In this document: positions 2,709 through 27,270 of the stretch, piece after piece
Numbering within the stretch: the stretch's first letter is position 1
How the letters are laid out: the number at the start of each line of letters is the position of its first letter
Source: a virus
Length of the DNA: 47,642 bases
Strand: one strand, 5' to 3'
IMG/VR virus record: IMGVR_UViG_3300034407_003043
Span: 1-47,642 of that record
Program-made: the position numbers and the translations under genes
Notes under the pieces: generated by a model
Seen by the model: the letters and a program-made list of their open reading frames with translations, nothing else
Told to the model about the DNA's origin: nothing
Database searches by the model: none

Positions 2709-3791
2709 CTAGAACGGGAGCGTGAATAAGGCTTTAACTTTTTCATGGTTTTGAAGAAAGTTAGAGGATGCTGTGACTTTAGACGCTACAGACATACGTG
2801 CTTCAGGGTCTAATCGTTCAAGGTAGGTAAGCATAGTATCTACCGTGTTTTCGGTAGTTACATTACTAACCAAGAATTGAGATACCTTTAGAATGTCAGC
2901 AGTTGACGTAGGTACTTGAGCTGATTCAGGATTAACCAGTATTTCGTCTAGACCTACACTTGGATTCATCAATGAAGAATGGAAATCAGAACCATTGGTG
3001 TATCCCATGATTGACTGGAAGGTAACCAAGTTATTACGTACTAGGTTAGTCAGAGGTACATTTCGCTTACCTGCTGAGTCCTGTAGACGCTTCATCATGG
3101 TTGATACAGCTTCAAGACAACGCCAAGTAGTAAATGGGGATTCACCATCATGTACTAGCTTAGGGTCAGCTTCTTTTATTTCGTCAGGATTATTCTGTAC
3201 CCAAGCCACTACTGATGGATGCCAGTTCTGACTTTGAATATAGTTTTGGAATTTACTAATACTCTCAACACTCTTGGTTTCAAGTTCAGCAATACCACAA
3301 CGACTACGAATAGCAGATGAAATAGGAACAGCATTAGCACCGGATGATACCTTATTACCCAGTAGAACAATCTTAGCTTTCTCATGTAGTTTGTGAGAGC
3401 CGATAGACTTTTCTAGAAGAATACGTTGAGCAGCTACCTGCATTGATTTAGGACAGTTACCAAACTCTTCAAAGATAATCAGGTGTCCTTTGTAAGGCTT
3501 ACCCGTATCAGGGTTGGTTTCCAGTTTTTCACCGGCCAACGGAAATAAATCACAAGGCAAGTATTCAAACTTACCCTTTTCTTTATTAGGTGTTGCATAG
3601 CCAATAACATCCATTTCATACATAGAATCTAGATAGATAGTATGTACTTGTAGTTGCTTATTCTTAGCGTAACTTACTGCTAACTGGCTTTTACCTTTAC
3701 CTACATCCCCGATAAGGAATGGGCAAAGCTCAGTAGCCATTACGTAATTAAACCAGTTGTGTACTTCTTCGTGTTGGATTTGAGGAATCAT
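2709..3791 (-). CDS. MoxR-type AAA+ ATPase
   Basis: A 360-residue AAA+ protein. Walker A is GDVGKGKS at 28-35, Walker B is LIIFEEF at 104-110, the sensor-1 asparagine is in VLLGNKV near N146, and a candidate arginine finger lies in AIRSRC near 160-165. The helix-2-insert-type segment before Walker B (YATPNKEKGKFEYLP) and the compact size suit the MoxR branch. MoxR ATPases act as chaperones together with VWA-domain proteins, and the next gene encodes just such a protein. GAGAG precedes the ATG. It lies between a coiled-coil protein and the VWA gene with 8-14 bp gaps, so the three look like one transcript. Confidence 0.87.
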   Translation of the reverse strand: MIPQIQHEEVHNWFNYVMATELCPFLIGDVGKGKSQLAVSYAKNKQLQVHTIYLDSMYEMDVIGYATPNKEKGKFEYLPCDLFPLAGEKLETNPDTGKPYKGHLIIFEEFGNCPKSMQVAAQRILLEKSIGSHKLHEKAKIVLLGNKVSSGANAVPISSAIRSRCGIAELETKSVESISKFQNYIQSQNWHPSVVAWVQNNPDEIKEADPKLVHDGESPFTTWRCLEAVSTMMKRLQDSAGKRNVPLTNLVRNNLVTFQSIMGYTNGSDFHSSLMNPSVGLDEILVNPESAQVPTSTADILKVSQFLVSNVTTENTVDTMLTYLERLDPEARMSVASKVTASSNFLQNHEKVKALFTLPF

Positions 3792-3805: not shown

Positions 3806-4120
3806 TTATTCCCAGTGAGTATTGTTGTACTCACGTATTCCCTCGCGAGCAGACTTAGCTTGTATTTGCGTCTGTCCTTCGAGGGATTCTAATTGATGAT
3901 TTAGGGTAGCTATCTTACTAACAAGCTCCCGTTTAGTTTTGGTTACAGCTTTATCTAGCTCAATCGTTGCGTCTTCAATGGTTTCACACCAGATGTAACG
4001 TTTAGTTTCACGGTCACGTTTTTTACCATTCACAATCACAGTCTTATCCGTGATGTGTGCTGTAGGGTCAGTAGTGAACTCAAGCTTAAGTAGCTGTCTA
4101 TCGACTCTGAATAAGAACAT
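3806..4120 (-). CDS. Hypothetical protein with C-terminal coiled coil
   Basis: A 104-residue protein that I do not recognise. The first 55 residues look like a small beta-rich fold (MFLFRVDRQLLKLEF...). Residues 50-95 are charged and helical with coiled-coil character (two-residue-spaced leucines and many Lys/Glu). GGAGA precedes the ATG. It sits one base after the stop of the ClpX-like gene and 14 bp before the MoxR gene, between two AAA+ ATPases, so it may be an adaptor for one of them. That is inference only. Confidence 0.75.
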   Translation of the reverse strand: MFLFRVDRQLLKLEFTTDPTAHITDKTVIVNGKKRDRETKRYIWCETIEDATIELDKAVTKTKRELVSKIATLNHQLESLEGQTQIQAKSAREGIREYNNTHWE

Positions 4121-4121
4121 C

Positions 4122-4979
4122 TTAGTCTCCTAATGATGTTTCAAAACCTAGCTCTGCTTGCAGTGCTTCTAGGTCTTCACCCATATCAGAACCTTCTTCT
4201 AGAATGTATTCAGGGAACACACCATCGAATAGGAAATACTGGTGAATCAAACGAGTGATAAGACGATAGCCAATTACATTGGTTGGGAAGTGTTTACGAA
4301 TTTGTTCAGCAATAGCATCTTGTGCCTTTTCAATGCCTTCTTTATCCAACTTGTGATTATTAGCATAGTTAACAAGTAATTCATCTTTCTTCATTGCTTT
4401 AACCAGTTCATCACACTCAATGCTAGGCAGTTCAATATGTAAGTTTACACGGCCTAACAATTCAGGGTACATACCCATGCCTAGTAACTTTTCAGGGGTA
4501 AGGTTAGTCTCACCCATGAATGCACCTGCAAAGATGAATAGAACATTCTTCGTATTCACCTCATGGTATTTACCGTAGTCAGCAATAACCTGAACTACAC
4601 CCGAAGAGATGATGTGAAGAACTTCTGATTGAACACCAGAACGCTCATCACCTGTAGCCCCATTAGCACCTAGGAATAGTTTATCGAACTCATCAAACAA
4701 GACTACTGTAGGTTTACCTTGTAGCTTCTTGAGGGGTTCTAGGGCTTTGGATAGGGAGTTACCCGAAATACCTTCACGGGTTAGTTGAGCACCGTTGATA
4801 TTTAAGAAAGCCATGGCATGTTTACGACATAGATTTTCTAGGATAAATGATTTACCTGTACCACTCTTACCTGAGATAATGAAGTGAGGACGGATTTTAC
4901 CTTGAGAAGCCATGTAGTTGCTGAGTACCTTATCAACAAACTTTATAGCTGACTCTTGGGATTCGAGTTTACTTGCCAT
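4122..4979 (-). CDS. ClpX-like AAA+ ATPase without zinc-binding domain
   Basis: A 285-residue AAA+ ATPase. Walker A is GKSGTGKS at 37-44 and Walker B is VVLFDEFDK near 92-100. The segment MYPELLGRVNLHIELPS near 172-187 resembles the box VII/arginine-finger region of ClpX (ELxGRxP), and GYRLITRL near 240-250 sits where sensor 2 (GxRxLR) is found. The N-terminal zinc-binding domain of host ClpX is absent and the protein is shorter (host ClpX is about 424 residues). No IGF-type ClpP-docking loop is evident, so it may unfold or remodel proteins without a protease. AAGGA lies about 10 bases before the ATG. Only 17 bp separate its start from the divergent gene at 4997. Confidence 0.85.
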   Translation of the reverse strand: MASKLESQESAIKFVDKVLSNYMASQGKIRPHFIISGKSGTGKSFILENLCRKHAMAFLNINGAQLTREGISGNSLSKALEPLKKLQGKPTVVLFDEFDKLFLGANGATGDERSGVQSEVLHIISSGVVQVIADYGKYHEVNTKNVLFIFAGAFMGETNLTPEKLLGMGMYPELLGRVNLHIELPSIECDELVKAMKKDELLVNYANNHKLDKEGIEKAQDAIAEQIRKHFPTNVIGYRLITRLIHQYFLFDGVFPEYILEEGSDMGEDLEALQAELGFETSLGD

Positions 4980-21980: not shown

Positions 21981-22056
21981 TGGCGGTGAGTATAGGATTC
22001 GAACCTATGACCTAGTGGTTAACGGCCAGTCGCATATACCATTTATGCTTCCCACC
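21981..22056 (-). tRNA. Degenerate tRNA-Asn(GTT), 5' half overlapping an HNH gene
   Basis: A 76-nt unit with encoded CCA, T-arm ATAGG-TTCGAAT-CCTAT, variable loop AGGTC and acceptor 3' strand ACTCACC plus G73. The 5' acceptor GGTGGGA pairs at six of seven positions. The D-stem is GCAT/ATGC, with only one linker base. The anticodon stem ACTGG/CCACT has a C.C mismatch and the loop is CCGTTAA, so position 33 is C instead of the near-universal T. The first 14 bases are also the end of the HNH coding sequence at 22043. It may be a rebuilt, weak tRNA or a pseudogene. Confidence 0.55.
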
Positions 22057-22402
22057 CCTTAGCGAAATGTTCAATACGGTGACAGTTAGAACATAACATA
22101 ATGCACTTTTCAAGCTCGGCTTCAATCTTAGCCCAACCCCAAGTTACCCCTTTTGCCCCTAAACCAAAGTCTTTATGTTCTGGCTCAGTATGGTGAAACT
22201 CGTAAACGCAATTAGGGAAAACCCCTTCACAATGAGCACATTTACCACCCATATGTTTTACTGCTTTGGTCTTTAACATCTTACGACGTTTAGATACCGC
22301 ATCAACCGAGCACTTCTTACATCGCCCTTTAGGACGGTCTTTTGACACTCGAAAATCTGTTAACCCGTGAATCTTACACTCACGCTCTACTGTAGGGTTC
22401 AT
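22043..22402 (-). CDS. HNH homing-type endonuclease inserted in a tRNA gene
   Basis: A 119-residue HNH protein. An N-terminal zinc cluster (C9, H12, then CKKC near 28-31) precedes GGKCAHCEG, the catalytic YEFHHTEPEHKDF and the closing CIMLCSNCHRIEHF. This is the HNH_5-like layout with two CxxC pairs. AAGGAG lies eight bases before ATG 22402. Its last five codons and stop run into the tRNA-Asn-like gene, and a second copy of a tRNA 5' half lies 59 bp before its start. It therefore looks like a mobile endonuclease that entered a tRNA gene. Confidence 0.88.
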   Translation of the reverse strand: MNPTVERECKIHGLTDFRVSKDRPKGRCKKCSVDAVSKRRKMLKTKAVKHMGGKCAHCEGVFPNCVYEFHHTEPEHKDFGLGAKGVTWGWAKIEAELEKCIMLCSNCHRIEHFAKGWEA

Positions 22403-23618: not shown

Positions 23619-24599
23619 TTACGATATTGCATAATGGTTATTTCTTAGCTTACGAATGATATCAGCACTAGGCTTATCCATATCTTTAAGCATGTTGATA
23701 CCAGTTAGTTGTTGCACTACTTTAGGTAACCACTCACCGATGTAGACTTCAGCCAATATGTTGTTGTAGTGAGTCTTAGTAGAGTTCACATGGTTAGGTA
23801 ATGAACCAAATCCATCATGAATTAGTTTCAGTTGATGTGGTTTGTCCTCTTCCAATATAGAATCAACGATAGCCAGTAGTTCACGTAGATACATATGGTC
23901 GATGTCAGCTAGGTAACCTCGTTTAATTTCCTCAGCACCACGAATAGATACCATCTTGAACTTCTTAGAGATAGCTTCTAGACGTTTAACTTCAGTCATA
24001 GTACCAATTTGAGTTTCACCATTAAGGCATGTCTCAATAGCTTCCTTAGCCATACGTAGTTGAGTTTCATTGTAGTCACAACGAGCATCGACCTCACGTA
24101 GTACAAATGCATCTAGTGAATGTGTTACACGAGCAGCTAAAGCTTTAGTACCTTCATCACCTTTCTGTTTAGCACCTACTTCTTCGTACACATAAGTGAA
24201 GCGTTTACCATTGTAGTAGTACACTTCAGAGTTGCTACGTACTACTTTGATGTGTGCGGTATGACCATCAGGTAGTTCCCATTCATAGTATTCAGCTTCT
24301 GAATCCCATGCATTTACTAACAGGTTCTTAACTACTTCAGCTCTTGGTACAGCTTTGTAGTAAGACTTAGTGAATAGGTCATGGAAGTCACCAAATACTG
24401 TTTTAGGTGCTTTACCTGAACCGTATACGTAAGGAACAGTTGCTTTCTTAACATTCTTACGTTTGATTACAGCTAGGTTAGGTACCTCTTTTCTCATGTA
24501 GCCAAAGATAGATGTGTACAGGTCAGGTACAGTATCACTGATAGCACCTGTGATAAGCATACCTTGGATACAGCGTGTAGCTACCGATAGTAATTGTGG
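23619..24599 (-). CDS. N4 RNAP II-type RNA polymerase large subunit, exon 2
   Basis: Second exon of an intron-split gene; 326 codons. It starts CCA CAA TTA (24599 on), giving PQLLSVATRCIQG before the first internal ATG. Joined to exon 1 it makes a 420-residue subunit, near the 404 residues of N4 p7 (gp16). Motif B is VKKATVPYVYGSG (K146, Y153 in the joined protein), matching T7 RNAP K631/Y639. THSLDAFVLREV corresponds to the T7 HSQDGSH region. Motif C is LKLIHDGFGSLP with catalytic D356. A reader starting at the internal ATG 24560 would miss the first 13 codons and the polymerase motif A. Confidence 0.88.
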   Translation of the reverse strand, partial: PQLLSVATRCIQGMLITGAISDTVPDLYTSIFGYMRKEVPNLAVIKRKNVKKATVPYVYGSGKAPKTVFGDFHDLFTKSYYKAVPRAEVVKNLLVNAWDSEAEYYEWELPDGHTAHIKVVRSNSEVYYYNGKRFTYVYEEVGAKQKGDEGTKALAARVTHSLDAFVLREVDARCDYNETQLRMAKEAIETCLNGETQIGTMTEVKRLEAISKKFKMVSIRGAEEIKRGYLADIDHMYLRELLAIVDSILEEDKPHQLKLIHDGFGSLPNHVNSTKTHYNNILAEVYIGEWLPKVVQQLTGINMLKDMDKPSADIIRKLRNNHYAIS

Positions 24600-25635
24600 C
24601 AGTATGTTCAGACAGGTTCACTACACCTGTCCCGTTTAATTATAAATTACCAAATATCCATCCCTTGAGTATTCCACTCTTCTTGGGTTTATCAATATTC
24701 GTGTAATGAAATCTATGTTCCATTTGTCTAGGGGTTAAACCGAGAGTAGATGCGTAATCTTTCTTGGTTATGTCGTAGACTTCTGTTTTATTACCTAGGT
24801 CGTCAATAAAGTACCAAGGAGTAAAAGCTTGATTGCTTATCCCCTTATGTCCTTTTTTACTATTAGGTATACCTTTAGTGGTTTCGGATAATCTAACATC
24901 TGCTGCTTTCTGTGCAGGTGTTCTATTCTCACCACAGTAGTTACTTAGCTTTTGAGCAGTACCTCTGAGATACCCATGAGTATCTTCGGTTCTACCTTTC
25001 AGCTTAGATTGCATACTACGGATGTTAGGATGGGTCTCTGCTTTCTGTCCATACTTATCAAAGGTTTTAAGTCTTTGATTATAGTAATGTTCTGACTCTA
25101 CACAACCATGTTCTAGGATGTATTGAATCTCCGCATTAACAGCATCTTCTCTGCTATCGTGTAGGGCAAGAATTGTCTTGGTACATATACTCTCATCCCT
25201 GATTACAGGTAACTCAGTACCTGACCCTCTGTATGTTACATCCAGTTCAGGGTCAAGGTGAGTAGAGTGTACGCCTACGTAAAGCATTCCATCATTAAAG
25301 GTTAATAAGTAAGTATAATGGTTCATAAATGTCCTTGAGGTATGTTGCTTCTGAACCTCAAGTATATGTTAAACAGCTATGCATTTCTACATAGTTCAGA
25401 CTATATCTTCACCCTCAGTTGTAGGGTGTTCCGCATTTCCATTTAAAGCACTAGGCTACCGTTTGGCTGTATGGATTTCATCCTCCGTTCTGGAAGGTCT
25501 ATCCTAGTCGTTGAACCTTCAAAGGGATTCCTCCCTAAGCTTGGCTGCTGATTGTCTTCACCTTTACGTGGTCAGAGTTCCCAGCAATTAACGGAATGTT
25601 CGATAACCATTACTGGTTAAAGGGGCACACTATTT
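24600..25635 (-). ncRNA. Group I intron (IA-like) within the RNA polymerase gene
   Basis: A 1036-nt intron. The 5' exon ends GGGT and pairs with GCCC in the intron, placing a U.G pair at the splice site (P1). The last base is G and the next exon starts CCACAA, with UGUG in the guide region able to form P10. Core elements on the minus strand: P (AATTGCTGGGAACTC, 25589-25570), Q (AATCAGCAGCCAAGC, 25553-25539), R (GGTTCAACGACTAGG, ending 25500) and S (GAAGATATAGTCTGAAC, 25410-25394), with the GACTA/TAGTC P7 pair. A 3' hairpin GACAGGT-GTAGTGA-ACCTGTC precedes the 3' splice site. The order and sequence match T4 and SPO1-type introns. It encodes a GIY-YIG endonuclease after the S element. Confidence 0.92.
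24640..25326 (-). CDS. GIY-YIG homing endonuclease encoded in the intron
   Basis: A 228-residue protein. The N-terminus MNHYTYLLTFNDGMLYVGVH is a GIY-YIG domain in a degenerate form (YTY...YVG), followed by a conserved YRGSG and the EAxxxE-like helix REDAVNAEIQYILEHG with the catalytic glutamate. The C-terminal half holds NUMOD-like DNA-binding parts: TPWYFIDDLGNKTEVYDITK and then YASTLGLTPRQMEHRF. AAGGACATTT precedes the ATG. It lies downstream of the intron core. Its likely job is to cut intron-less alleles of the polymerase gene and spread the intron. Confidence 0.9.
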   Translation of the reverse strand: MNHYTYLLTFNDGMLYVGVHSTHLDPELDVTYRGSGTELPVIRDESICTKTILALHDSREDAVNAEIQYILEHGCVESEHYYNQRLKTFDKYGQKAETHPNIRSMQSKLKGRTEDTHGYLRGTAQKLSNYCGENRTPAQKAADVRLSETTKGIPNSKKGHKGISNQAFTPWYFIDDLGNKTEVYDITKKDYASTLGLTPRQMEHRFHYTNIDKPKKSGILKGWIFGNL

Positions 25636-25917
25636 ACCCGAAGCTGCTGCATCTAGCTCAATGTAATGACCAGATGGATTACCATTAACGATATCCCATA
25701 CATTCAATAGAGATGCAGTGAATATCTCAGGTTCATCAGCACTATCAATCTTGTCTTGAAAGTGTTTGCTTAGGTCAAGCATTCCCTTACATTTACGGAT
25801 AGTAGGTAACTGTTCTCTACCCCAAGATAGGCGTTCTTCAAATGGTTTCTTGTCTAGACCGAACATAGATGCTAAATCGATAAGTGACCATTGTGCAGCA
25901 GTAAATAGGTGTTTCAT
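25636..25917 (-). CDS. N4 RNAP II-type RNA polymerase large subunit, exon 1
   Basis: First exon, 94 codons, from ATG 25917 (AAGGA upstream). It corresponds to the palm region of T7 RNAP before motif A: GLDKKPFEERLSWGREQL resembles the T7 segment around VDKVPFPERIKF, and the exon ends GHYIELDAAASG with catalytic D89 (T7 D537). Without splicing the frame would end after one more codon (AAA TAG, 25635-25630), so a truncated 95-residue product would be inactive. The splice joins GGT to CCA and continues as PQLLSVATRC, in frame. Transcribed with the small subunit and the 25949 gene. Confidence 0.88.
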
Positions 25918-25948: not shown

Positions 25949-26380
25949 TTATTTACGGTTAACTTTGTATATTACTTCTTTGGCGTTATCTAATAACACC
26001 TTCATATCCTTCCCTTGGATAGCCTTGTTTCGGATATCCCAAAGTACGGTAGCTTGGCAACATCTACCTTCTTGTCCGAAGATATCTGATAAGCCGGCAG
26101 CTTGTTTTAAGACGATAAGTAGAGGGTAGTTTTCAGCTAGGGTGTAGTAAGTCCATAGAGCCTTATAGTACTCGGTACACTCATCCATGTTGACAGCTTG
26201 CTTACCTTTAGCCTCACGCCAAGTAAGCCCGGTACTACCATCTTTAAAGACCTTACTTGCTTGGTATAGATCTTCTATCGACTTACCCTTAGCACCCTTT
26301 ATACGAGCACAGAATGCACTAAATCGTTTATCACCTTTGGTTGAGCACTCAAGGAATGGTTCTTGTCCATGTCTAATCAT
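25949..26380 (-). CDS. Conserved phage protein between the two RNAP subunits
   Basis: A 143-residue protein. It has the pattern FSAFCARIKGAKGKSIEDLY, then GSTGLTWREAKGKQAVNMDE and GLSDIFGQEGRCCQATVLWD, which I associate with a widely spread phage protein of unknown function. GGAG precedes the ATG. Its place between the RNAP II subunit genes (2 bp after the small subunit, 31 bp before exon 1) suggests early expression. No mechanism can be read off. Confidence 0.75.
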   Translation of the reverse strand: MIRHGQEPFLECSTKGDKRFSAFCARIKGAKGKSIEDLYQASKVFKDGSTGLTWREAKGKQAVNMDECTEYYKALWTYYTLAENYPLLIVLKQAAGLSDIFGQEGRCCQATVLWDIRNKAIQGKDMKVLLDNAKEVIYKVNRK

Positions 26381-26382
26381 GA

Positions 26383-27270
26383 TTAAAACTCCGGTTCTAC
26401 TAGTTCTTTATTGTAAGATTGAATCATTGCTTTTATATAGGCGATAGACTGGTAGTTAAAGTGATGAGCCTTAGCGTAACATCTACCACCATTATCAAAT
26501 CGATGGTGTATGTAGAAACGGTTACCATTCTGAGCCATTAACTTGGCTTTACTAGGTAGCTCATCCATTAACTGTGACCATGTTTCAAATCGTTTAGACA
26601 CATCTAATTCTGACTCCATATTACCGTCATCTTTCATCTTTGGTTCAGAGTCAAACTTAGGTGTTACTAGGAATTGAATACGATTGTCTACTCGATAAGG
26701 AGTACGGTTTACTCGGTTGATGTGATTAAGATTTAGAGGCTTATCATGATGTTTAAGTACACCACCACAGATAATACTTTGGTTAATAGTTCTATAACCA
26801 ATCATAGAGTTGTTGGTTATCTTTAGAGGGATATCAATACTAGGTAATACATAGCTTAACTGTTTACGTTTATCAGCTATCTCTTTAGGTAGTTTATTCT
26901 TACACGTAAACATTAAGTACATACCTAATCTGTTTACTTCAATAAACTTACTACTAGATACAGCATTAAGCATAATATCAATGATATGTTGCTTATGTTC
27001 GTAACTACGTAGTTTGTTATACATCATACCTACTAGAGCTTGAGCAGTAGCTTGACCATCAAGTACTACTCTTGCTATGAGTCTGTAGATAGTTTCCCCT
27101 AGGTTATCCTTTTCTAACCATTCATATATCTCATTATGTTCCTCATCTGATAAAGGAGCATCTAATAGGTCAATGTTATCTAAATACTGCATTGCATCAG
27201 TTGTTAATTGCTCTTCACCATGTCTAAGTAATTCTAGTTCATGGTCTTTAGCTAGTTGTTCTAAGTTCAT
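26383..27270 (-). CDS. N4 RNAP II-type RNA polymerase small subunit
   Basis: A 295-residue protein that resembles the N-terminal/thumb-and-palm entry part of T7-family polymerases, as N4 p4 (gp15, about 269 residues) does. The best landmark is the end: GNRFYIHHRFDNGGRCYAKA, then HHFNYQSIAYIKAMIQ, which parallels the T7 block FPYNMDWRGRVY plus the following helix. With the product of exons 1+2 it would form the heterodimer that transcribes middle genes. AAGGATTCCCCA precedes the ATG. Confidence 0.82.
   Translation of the reverse strand: MNLEQLAKDHELELLRHGEEQLTTDAMQYLDNIDLLDAPLSDEEHNEIYEWLEKDNLGETIYRLIARVVLDGQATAQALVGMMYNKLRSYEHKQHIIDIMLNAVSSSKFIEVNRLGMYLMFTCKNKLPKEIADKRKQLSYVLPSIDIPLKITNNSMIGYRTINQSIICGGVLKHHDKPLNLNHINRVNRTPYRVDNRIQFLVTPKFDSEPKMKDDGNMESELDVSKRFETWSQLMDELPSKAKLMAQNGNRFYIHHRFDNGGRCYAKAHHFNYQSIAYIKAMIQSYNKELVEPEF

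Follow-up and report, generated by a model that had tools for sequence, protein, structure and literature searches.

A probable mobile group I intron at motif A of the RNAPII large-subunit gene of an N4-like phage

The stretch of DNA analysed here, referred to as the window, comprises 47,642 bases and is the record of a single virus contig. Its gene content is that of an N4-like phage and includes genes for terminase, portal, head, RIIA/RIIB and both RNAPII subunits. The large-subunit gene (p7) lies in two pieces, separated by a group I intron containing the putative gene of a homing endonuclease (Table 1). Exon 1 matches phrog_2051 over profile positions 3–80, and exon 2, when entered from its ATG, matches the same family over positions 103–401 (E = 4.5e-54). 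The gene for the small subunit, the partner of p7, is located nearby, as is characteristic of N4-type RNAPII large subunits. A profile generated from six intronless p7 homologues, including N4 gp16, detected T7 RNA polymerase at 3.2e-16; it also recovers N4 RNAP2 (6dt7_B), by construction, since N4 gp16 is part of the profile. A near-DNA search for the p7 region among phages gave no matches. Between the two RNAPII subunit genes is a gene for a NADAR-like protein (25949–26380, minus strand; phrog_9995; PF22397 at E = 2e-5, which is below the Pfam cut-off). Further along the window, an HNH endonuclease ORF (22043–22402, minus strand; phrog_2255, E = 3.1e-26) overlaps at its 3' end by 14 nt with a predicted tRNA gene (21984–22056, minus strand).

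Table 1. Features of the RNAPII region of the window (positions in the window; all on the minus strand)
Feature	Position	Strand	Basis
RNAPII large subunit (p7/gp16), exon 1, residues 1–94 (ends D89-AAA-S-G94)	25636..25917	-	phrog_2051 RNA polymerase, homologue alignment
RNAPII large subunit, exon 2, residues 95–420 and stop; motif B, HSLDA motif, motif C (H355-D356)	23619..24599	-	phrog_2051
Group I intron of 1,036 nt, from AAATAG to CATACTG, with G as the last base	24600..25635	-	RF00028, 82.8 bits; boundaries set by the reading frame and by homologues
Catalytic core of the intron, from the intron side of P1 to P9	25377..25635	-	RF00028 alignment, pair counts
P1, exon GGGU (25639–25636) with internal guide GCCC (25626–25623), U.G at 5' splice site	25623..25639	-	Aligned introns
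P7 5' strand, GACUA	25505..25509	-	Conserved, no covariation
P7 3' strand, UAGUC, pairs with GACUA	25399..25403	-	Conserved, no covariation
Putative intron-encoded homing endonuclease, 228 aa, 3' of P9	24640..25326	-	phrog_314, E = 1.7e-16; predicted fold
RNAPII small subunit (N4 gp15/p4-like), partner of p7	26383..27270	-	phrog_2166 N4-like RNA polymerase, E = 2.7e-38

Read separately, the two pieces of p7 form frames of 95 aa (25917..25630) and 313 aa (24560..23619), and in the unspliced reading the exon 1 frame reaches a stop after 95 residues. It was originally predicted that the two frames join from GGT to CCA. Translation of this join gives 420 residues with no stop, and alignment with homologues bears it out. 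Extending exon 2 in frame 5' of its ATG (24560) to the CCA at 24599 adds 13 residues, PQLLSVATRCIQG, which align with PQLLSCLTRCETG in Vibrio phage D505. The junction falls within motif A (D89..SG^PQ). Across it, the spliced protein can be aligned with homologues encoded by intronless genes of Vibrio phages; the sequence there reads DAAASG^PQLLSVATRCIQGMLITGAIS..VPDLY in the window and DAASSGPQLLSCLTRCETGMMNTGAID..VPDLY in D505. The join would be called into question if the residues flanking it were missing from homologues; D505 matches these residues, so that the objection does not apply. Both catalytic aspartates occupy their predicted places in the spliced protein, D89 of motif A being supplied by exon 1 and D356 of motif C (H355-D356) by exon 2. 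The base preceding the intron is T and its final base is G; since the boundaries were chosen to suit the frame, the U and the G, these three features are not independent tests. In-frame joins are also possible if exon 2 is taken to begin with ATC CAA or with CTT near 24560. These were rejected, as 10–14 residues present in the homologues would be lost and the ATC start would need an unusual terminal base for the intron, whereas the CCA start suits the homologues and gives a terminal G.

The window was scanned with 4,227 RNA families. The covariance check with RF00028, proposed together with the original prediction, gave a full-length match at 25645–25377 (minus strand; model positions 1–253) of 82.8 bits (E = 1.1e-19), above the gathering score of 50, and the predicted U at the 5' splice site with P1, terminal G and P7 pair are all present. 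For analysis of covariation, five distinct introns sharing this insertion point (site A) were aligned, namely those of the window, phages VL1 and PAP02, and the IMG/VR loci L016 and L017. Helices P1, P2, P3, P4, P7, P8 and P9 comprise 35 pairs, with 99.4% of the cells paired. Two-sided changes were found at 14 of the 35 pairs, compared with a mean of 5.3 after shuffling (0 of 500 shuffles as high) and 0–2 in slid controls. The covarying pairs lie in P2, P3, P8 and P9. P1 (GGGU/GCCC in all five introns), P4 and P7 are invariant and therefore add nothing through covariation. RNAalifold, which cannot represent the P7 pseudoknot, recovered P1, P2, P3, P4, P8 and P9 unaided. Introns of subgroup IA carry an insertion (P7.1/P7.2) between P7 and P3. 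About 70 nt are inserted at this place in the window intron, the comparison being made with this general rule.

The earlier account of the locus, which was right about the intron and the exons, did not mention the 228-aa ORF (25326..24640) assigned here to the phrog_314 homing endonucleases. The Pfam family SegE_GIY-YIG matches the window protein with E = 0.024, below the cut-off; at E<=0.05, SegE_GIY-YIG is found in 6 of 12 family members including the window (best 1.8e-8) and PF01541 in 4 of the 12 (best 1.4e-4). The predicted structure has a mean pLDDT of 67.8 and is confident at about residues 1–80 (92–95 in blocks 1–30 and 51–70) but poor in the middle. Residues 1–91 of the model resemble the catalytic domain of I-TevI (1mk0; Z 7.3, rmsd 3.1 over 85 aligned residues) and the GIY-YIG domain of UvrC (Z 5.2), and residues 163–228 resemble the end of I-HmuI (1u3e; Z 4.0). 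Values of Z below 8 are weak evidence when taken singly, but the best-ranking structures, I-TevI and UvrC, belong to the homing-endonuclease or GIY-YIG domains. Foldseek with the same model returned no match at E<=0.001, with I-TevI in sixth place (E = 2.2). As modelled, the N-terminal part (about residues 1–91) adopts an I-TevI-like GIY-YIG fold. In phage T4, the td (thymidylate synthase) gene contains a group I intron with the GIY-YIG endonuclease I-TevI. The window resembles it in having a GIY-YIG endonuclease in a phage group I intron, with an endonuclease model that matches the I-TevI fold, and differs in its host gene. Relatives of the endonuclease are also found in phages FBPa1 and phPLST.

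Position 20 of the endonuclease is His in the window and Arg in the other 11 of the 12 aligned members. Since the window protein also scores below the Pfam cut-off and finds no Foldseek match, it may be weakened or inactive. The missing Arg, together with the fact that the window is a single virus contig, raises the question of whether the intron as a whole has degenerated, having formerly been spliced and now being inactive, in which case the phage would be without a working RNAPII or belong to a dead lineage. However, all seven tested helices are intact in the window, the exons are open over 420 codons and the endonuclease frame is open, and we regard degeneration as very improbable. The intron endonuclease also has relatives that are encoded elsewhere than in p7, namely in Vibrio phage VBP32 (L008, 3501–4208) and at the IMG/VR loci L018–L038. 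Since no RF00028 match above threshold was present in VBP32 or in the 17 scanned of these 21 loci, these relatives may be free-standing.

In the phage collection, the endonuclease has its nearest relatives in phages of Pseudomonas. Those of VL1 and PAP02, both members of Litunavirus, are 46.9% and 42.7% identical to that of the window, respectively, and lie between two RNAP2 pieces. The insertion again follows the SG of motif A, and an RF00028 core is present; the p7 of these phages, however, is of a different lineage, about 30% identical to that of the window. Phage Ab09, belonging to the same genus, has a whole p7, and its 92–96% DNA identity with VL1/PAP02 pinpoints the insertion after this SG. 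The p7 gene of Ab09 has close matches in 83 records; among the 60 of these that were listed, p7 is in two pieces in LP14, YH6 (two records) and Pa_WF01 and in one piece in the other 56. A relative of the window's endonuclease is located between the p7 pieces of YH6, LP14 and Pa_WF01, and the GenBank record of Pa_WF01 contains a depositor-annotated Intron_gpI at site A. The IMG/VR loci L015, L016 and L017 also have a site-A intron with an RF00028 core, and in L016 and L017 both the core and the endonuclease are related to those of the window. The prediction of a group I intron at motif A of an N4-type RNAPII large-subunit gene is thus upheld by the RF00028 match, the compensatory changes, the homologue alignment and the VL1/Ab09 comparison.

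The separation of the p7 halves by an endonuclease gene has been read differently in the literature. The VL1 paper (PMC9729221) presents such halves as separate polymerase genes, and the ZC08 paper (PMC5418858) mentions phage Aeh1, whose ribonucleotide reductase gene is a reported precedent for a gene in pieces. Applied to the window, this would mean that an endonuclease gene has split p7 and that the halves, each of which is an open frame with its own start codon, give rise to two polypeptides that together form an active polymerase, with no RNA splicing. Against this, a complete covarying group I core is present at the junction, translation from the ATG at 24560 would forgo 13 residues including a Q invariant in the six intronless homologues, and p7 of the relatives with empty sites is one continuous frame. 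We therefore consider separate translation of the halves most unlikely. It is very probable, in our judgement, that a mobile group I intron has been inserted into p7 of the window behind the SG of motif A, that self-excision of this intron restores the 420-residue subunit, and that the GIY-YIG endonuclease would spread the intron. At the sequence level, this is supported by the split gene, the intron core with its covarying pairs, the frame regained on joining the exons, the introns at the same site, the empty sites and the patchy distribution, from which we infer splicing, cleavage, homing and a middle transcription that awaits splicing.

The nearest p7 relatives of the window, those of SBP1, D505 and PG11 (37.9–45.4% identical), are encoded by uninterrupted genes, that of SBP1 spanning the start of its circular record. 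In a tree of 138 p7 proteins, constructed by a quick method, the window clusters with these three (support 98–100), far from the other site-A carriers; because of its long branch (1.63), its exact place within the clade is less sure. The site-A carriers do not cluster on the tree, requiring 4 changes compared with a shuffled mean of 4.7 (199 of 500 shuffles as low). Between carriers, the endonucleases are 42.7–46.9% identical, whereas the p7 proteins share 30.4–34.9% identity. The scattered carriers and this contrast in identity fit horizontal movement of the intron, with repeated loss as the alternative.

Interruptions of p7 were also found at other positions. A first IMG/VR scan with exon 2 alone yielded 4 stretches, none of which was confirmed. 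A scan favouring whole genes gave 80 loci (77 distinct) and no split p7; it was biased against introns since an intact motif C was required and ranking was by one piece. In a scan favouring carriers, with an exon 2 query built from four site-A carriers, 74 loci were obtained (69 distinct by a 150-nt probe), and p7 is interrupted by 0.8–1.3 kb at 9 of the 69. Three of these (L127, L156 and L178) are contigs that had themselves supplied rows of the query (L016, L015 and L017, respectively), and setting them aside leaves 6 of 66 distinct loci. Taking the two larger scans together, p7 is split at 9 of 128 distinct loci, in a sample partly biased to whole genes; L039 and L192, among the 154 loci, are cut off and were left unjudged. 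The IMG/VR interruptions outside motif A lie in motif B (L179), the HSxDG motif (L186, L188 and L189) and motif C (L182 and L183), and those in cultured phages in motif B (JWAlpha and 1.188.B) and motif C (ZC08 and D267). The motif names derive from an alignment between T7 RNA polymerase and the profile of the p7 family, in which motif A is strong while B, HSxDG and C are collinear but individually weak. Boundaries of the insertions were read from the frame, conserved residues, preceding T and final G, those of 1.188.B by eye.

In all, nine positions were inferred: 1 in motif A, 3 in motif B, 2 in the HSxDG motif and 3 in motif C, the last three within seven bases. RF00028 exceeds its gathering score at five of the nine, i.e. 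1) site A, 2) A^NVxHS, 3) the L186 site, 4) the ZC08 site and 5) the site shared by L183 and Pseudoalteromonas phage pYD6-A. At the other four, in motif B (L179, JWAlpha and 1.188.B) and at H^D (L182 and D267), it remains below that score (22–33.5 bits, with partly shifted coordinates), and these inserts are interruptions compatible with an intron. The ORFs within the inserts are of the GIY-YIG type at motif A and of HNH or other kinds elsewhere, as judged by eye or from record annotation. The simplest reading of these sequences is that p7, an apparent insertion hotspot, has been invaded on separate occasions.

N4 RNAPII synthesizes middle RNAs, and motifs A, B and C are carried by gp16, as stated in PMC4496689. 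For the window, the following course of events is the most likely: i) the intron would be transcribed together with p7 in the early transcript, ii) the RNA would fold into a group I ribozyme, with P1 (GGGU with GCCC) at the 5' site and the terminal G at the 3' end, iii) self-excision of the ribozyme would join codons 94 and 95, giving the 420-residue catalytic subunit, iv) active p7 would then drive middle transcription, and v) the GIY-YIG endonuclease would cut intronless p7 of coinfecting relatives, leading to spread of the intron. From the biology of N4, the early-to-middle switch would then depend on p7 splicing, a dependence put more firmly in the original prediction than the sequence data allow.

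Since N4 RNAPII makes the middle RNAs, splicing would gate middle transcription, and the intron might even serve as a control element that times the switch through the rate at which it is spliced, this rate being governed by translation or by the endonuclease ORF. A hairpin over the ribosome-binding site of the endonuclease is predicted in the five folded site-A introns (z of -2.5 in the window and -0.7 in L017). However, pairing of this site is 0.61–0.80 in six introns compared with a mean of 0.58 in 53 window ORFs, which is no clear excess over ordinary ORFs, and the hairpin was rejected as a timing or translational control of the endonuclease. Moreover, most of the p7 genes examined are intronless, as the above counts indicate. 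A role of the intron as a control element is thus improbable.

A broader proposal, which we put forward tentatively and hold to be possible rather than probable, is that p7 is a recurrent landing site. Mobile group I introns with GIY-YIG or HNH endonucleases would have entered separately at motifs A, B, HSxDG and C, at the nine inferred positions, with two introns together in pYD6-A. Because p7 controls middle transcription, a carrier would both need splicing to switch its programme and hold an endonuclease directed against the active-site codons of intronless rivals, so that these introns would act as weapons between N4-like phages. The use of the intron as a weapon is possible by analogy with PhiPA3, in which the RNA polymerase gene gp210 has a putative group I intron with an endonuclease beside conserved aspartates, and the intron is reported to act against an intronless rival phage (PMC11620839, PMC12908238). 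Unlike p7, this gene is a multisubunit RNAP beta gene of jumbo phages, and the endonuclease is of the HNH type.

Interrupted RNAP2 genes have been published previously. In the Achromobacter phages JWAlpha and JWDelta (2014), the RNAP2 gene is split by an endonuclease gene and the authors asked whether it is still functional (PMC3915230, PMC4193335); the term "intron" was not found in the main text of either paper. JWAlpha resembles the window in having p7 interrupted by an endonuclease gene, but differs in its insertion in motif B and its endonuclease; with its insert, RF00028 reaches only 22 bits (E = 0.074). For Pseudomonas phage ZC08 (2017), a homing endonuclease insertion in RNAP2 was described but not called a group I intron in the account given in PMC5418858. 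ZC08 likewise has an endonuclease gene inside an N4-type RNAP2, with an RF00028 match of 88.9 bits, and differs from the window in its motif C site and HNH endonuclease. In other genes of N4-like phages, a group I intron has been reported in td of pVa5, and endonuclease-split homologues of gp24, DNAP and gp43 in JA1. Among the matches listed in the open-access PMC literature, no N4-type RNAPII gene was found to be described as carrying a group I intron. The novelty originally claimed for the window nevertheless goes beyond the evidence, since the interruption itself was already published for JWAlpha/JWDelta and ZC08, and Intron_gpI is annotated in the Pa_WF01 record.

The window intron is ordinary in kind, yet it leads to the apparent insertion hotspot in p7 and offers an answer to the question raised for JWAlpha/JWDelta on the function of an interrupted RNAP2. 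Introns in p7 may explain seemingly broken polymerase genes in some published genomes; if the halves are exons, the p7 gene is intact and the annotations of JWAlpha/JWDelta and VL1 need mending. With four active-site motifs, several endonuclease types and empty sites in sister phages, p7 provides a natural series that could be used to test what makes catalytic codons a home for mobile introns, and whether introns let one phage exclude another, as in the report on PhiPA3. The latter test is practical since site-A carriers and non-carriers share a host species, P. aeruginosa.

Two of the interrupted genes in cultured phages deserve separate description. In pYD6-A (L010), for which the record gives two polymerase pieces, one p7 contains two group I introns: 1) an intron of 292 nt (3400–3691) in the HSxDG motif, which yielded no ORF of at least 90 aa, and 2) an intron of 971 nt (3984–4954) in motif C, containing an HNH-like ORF. 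In Vibrio phage D267 (L196, 1995–4102), an insert for which the record annotates an HNH endonuclease separates the His from the Asp in motif C of p7, and the missing p7 C-terminus is encoded in a 65-residue frame downstream of the insert; D449 shows the same truncated match.
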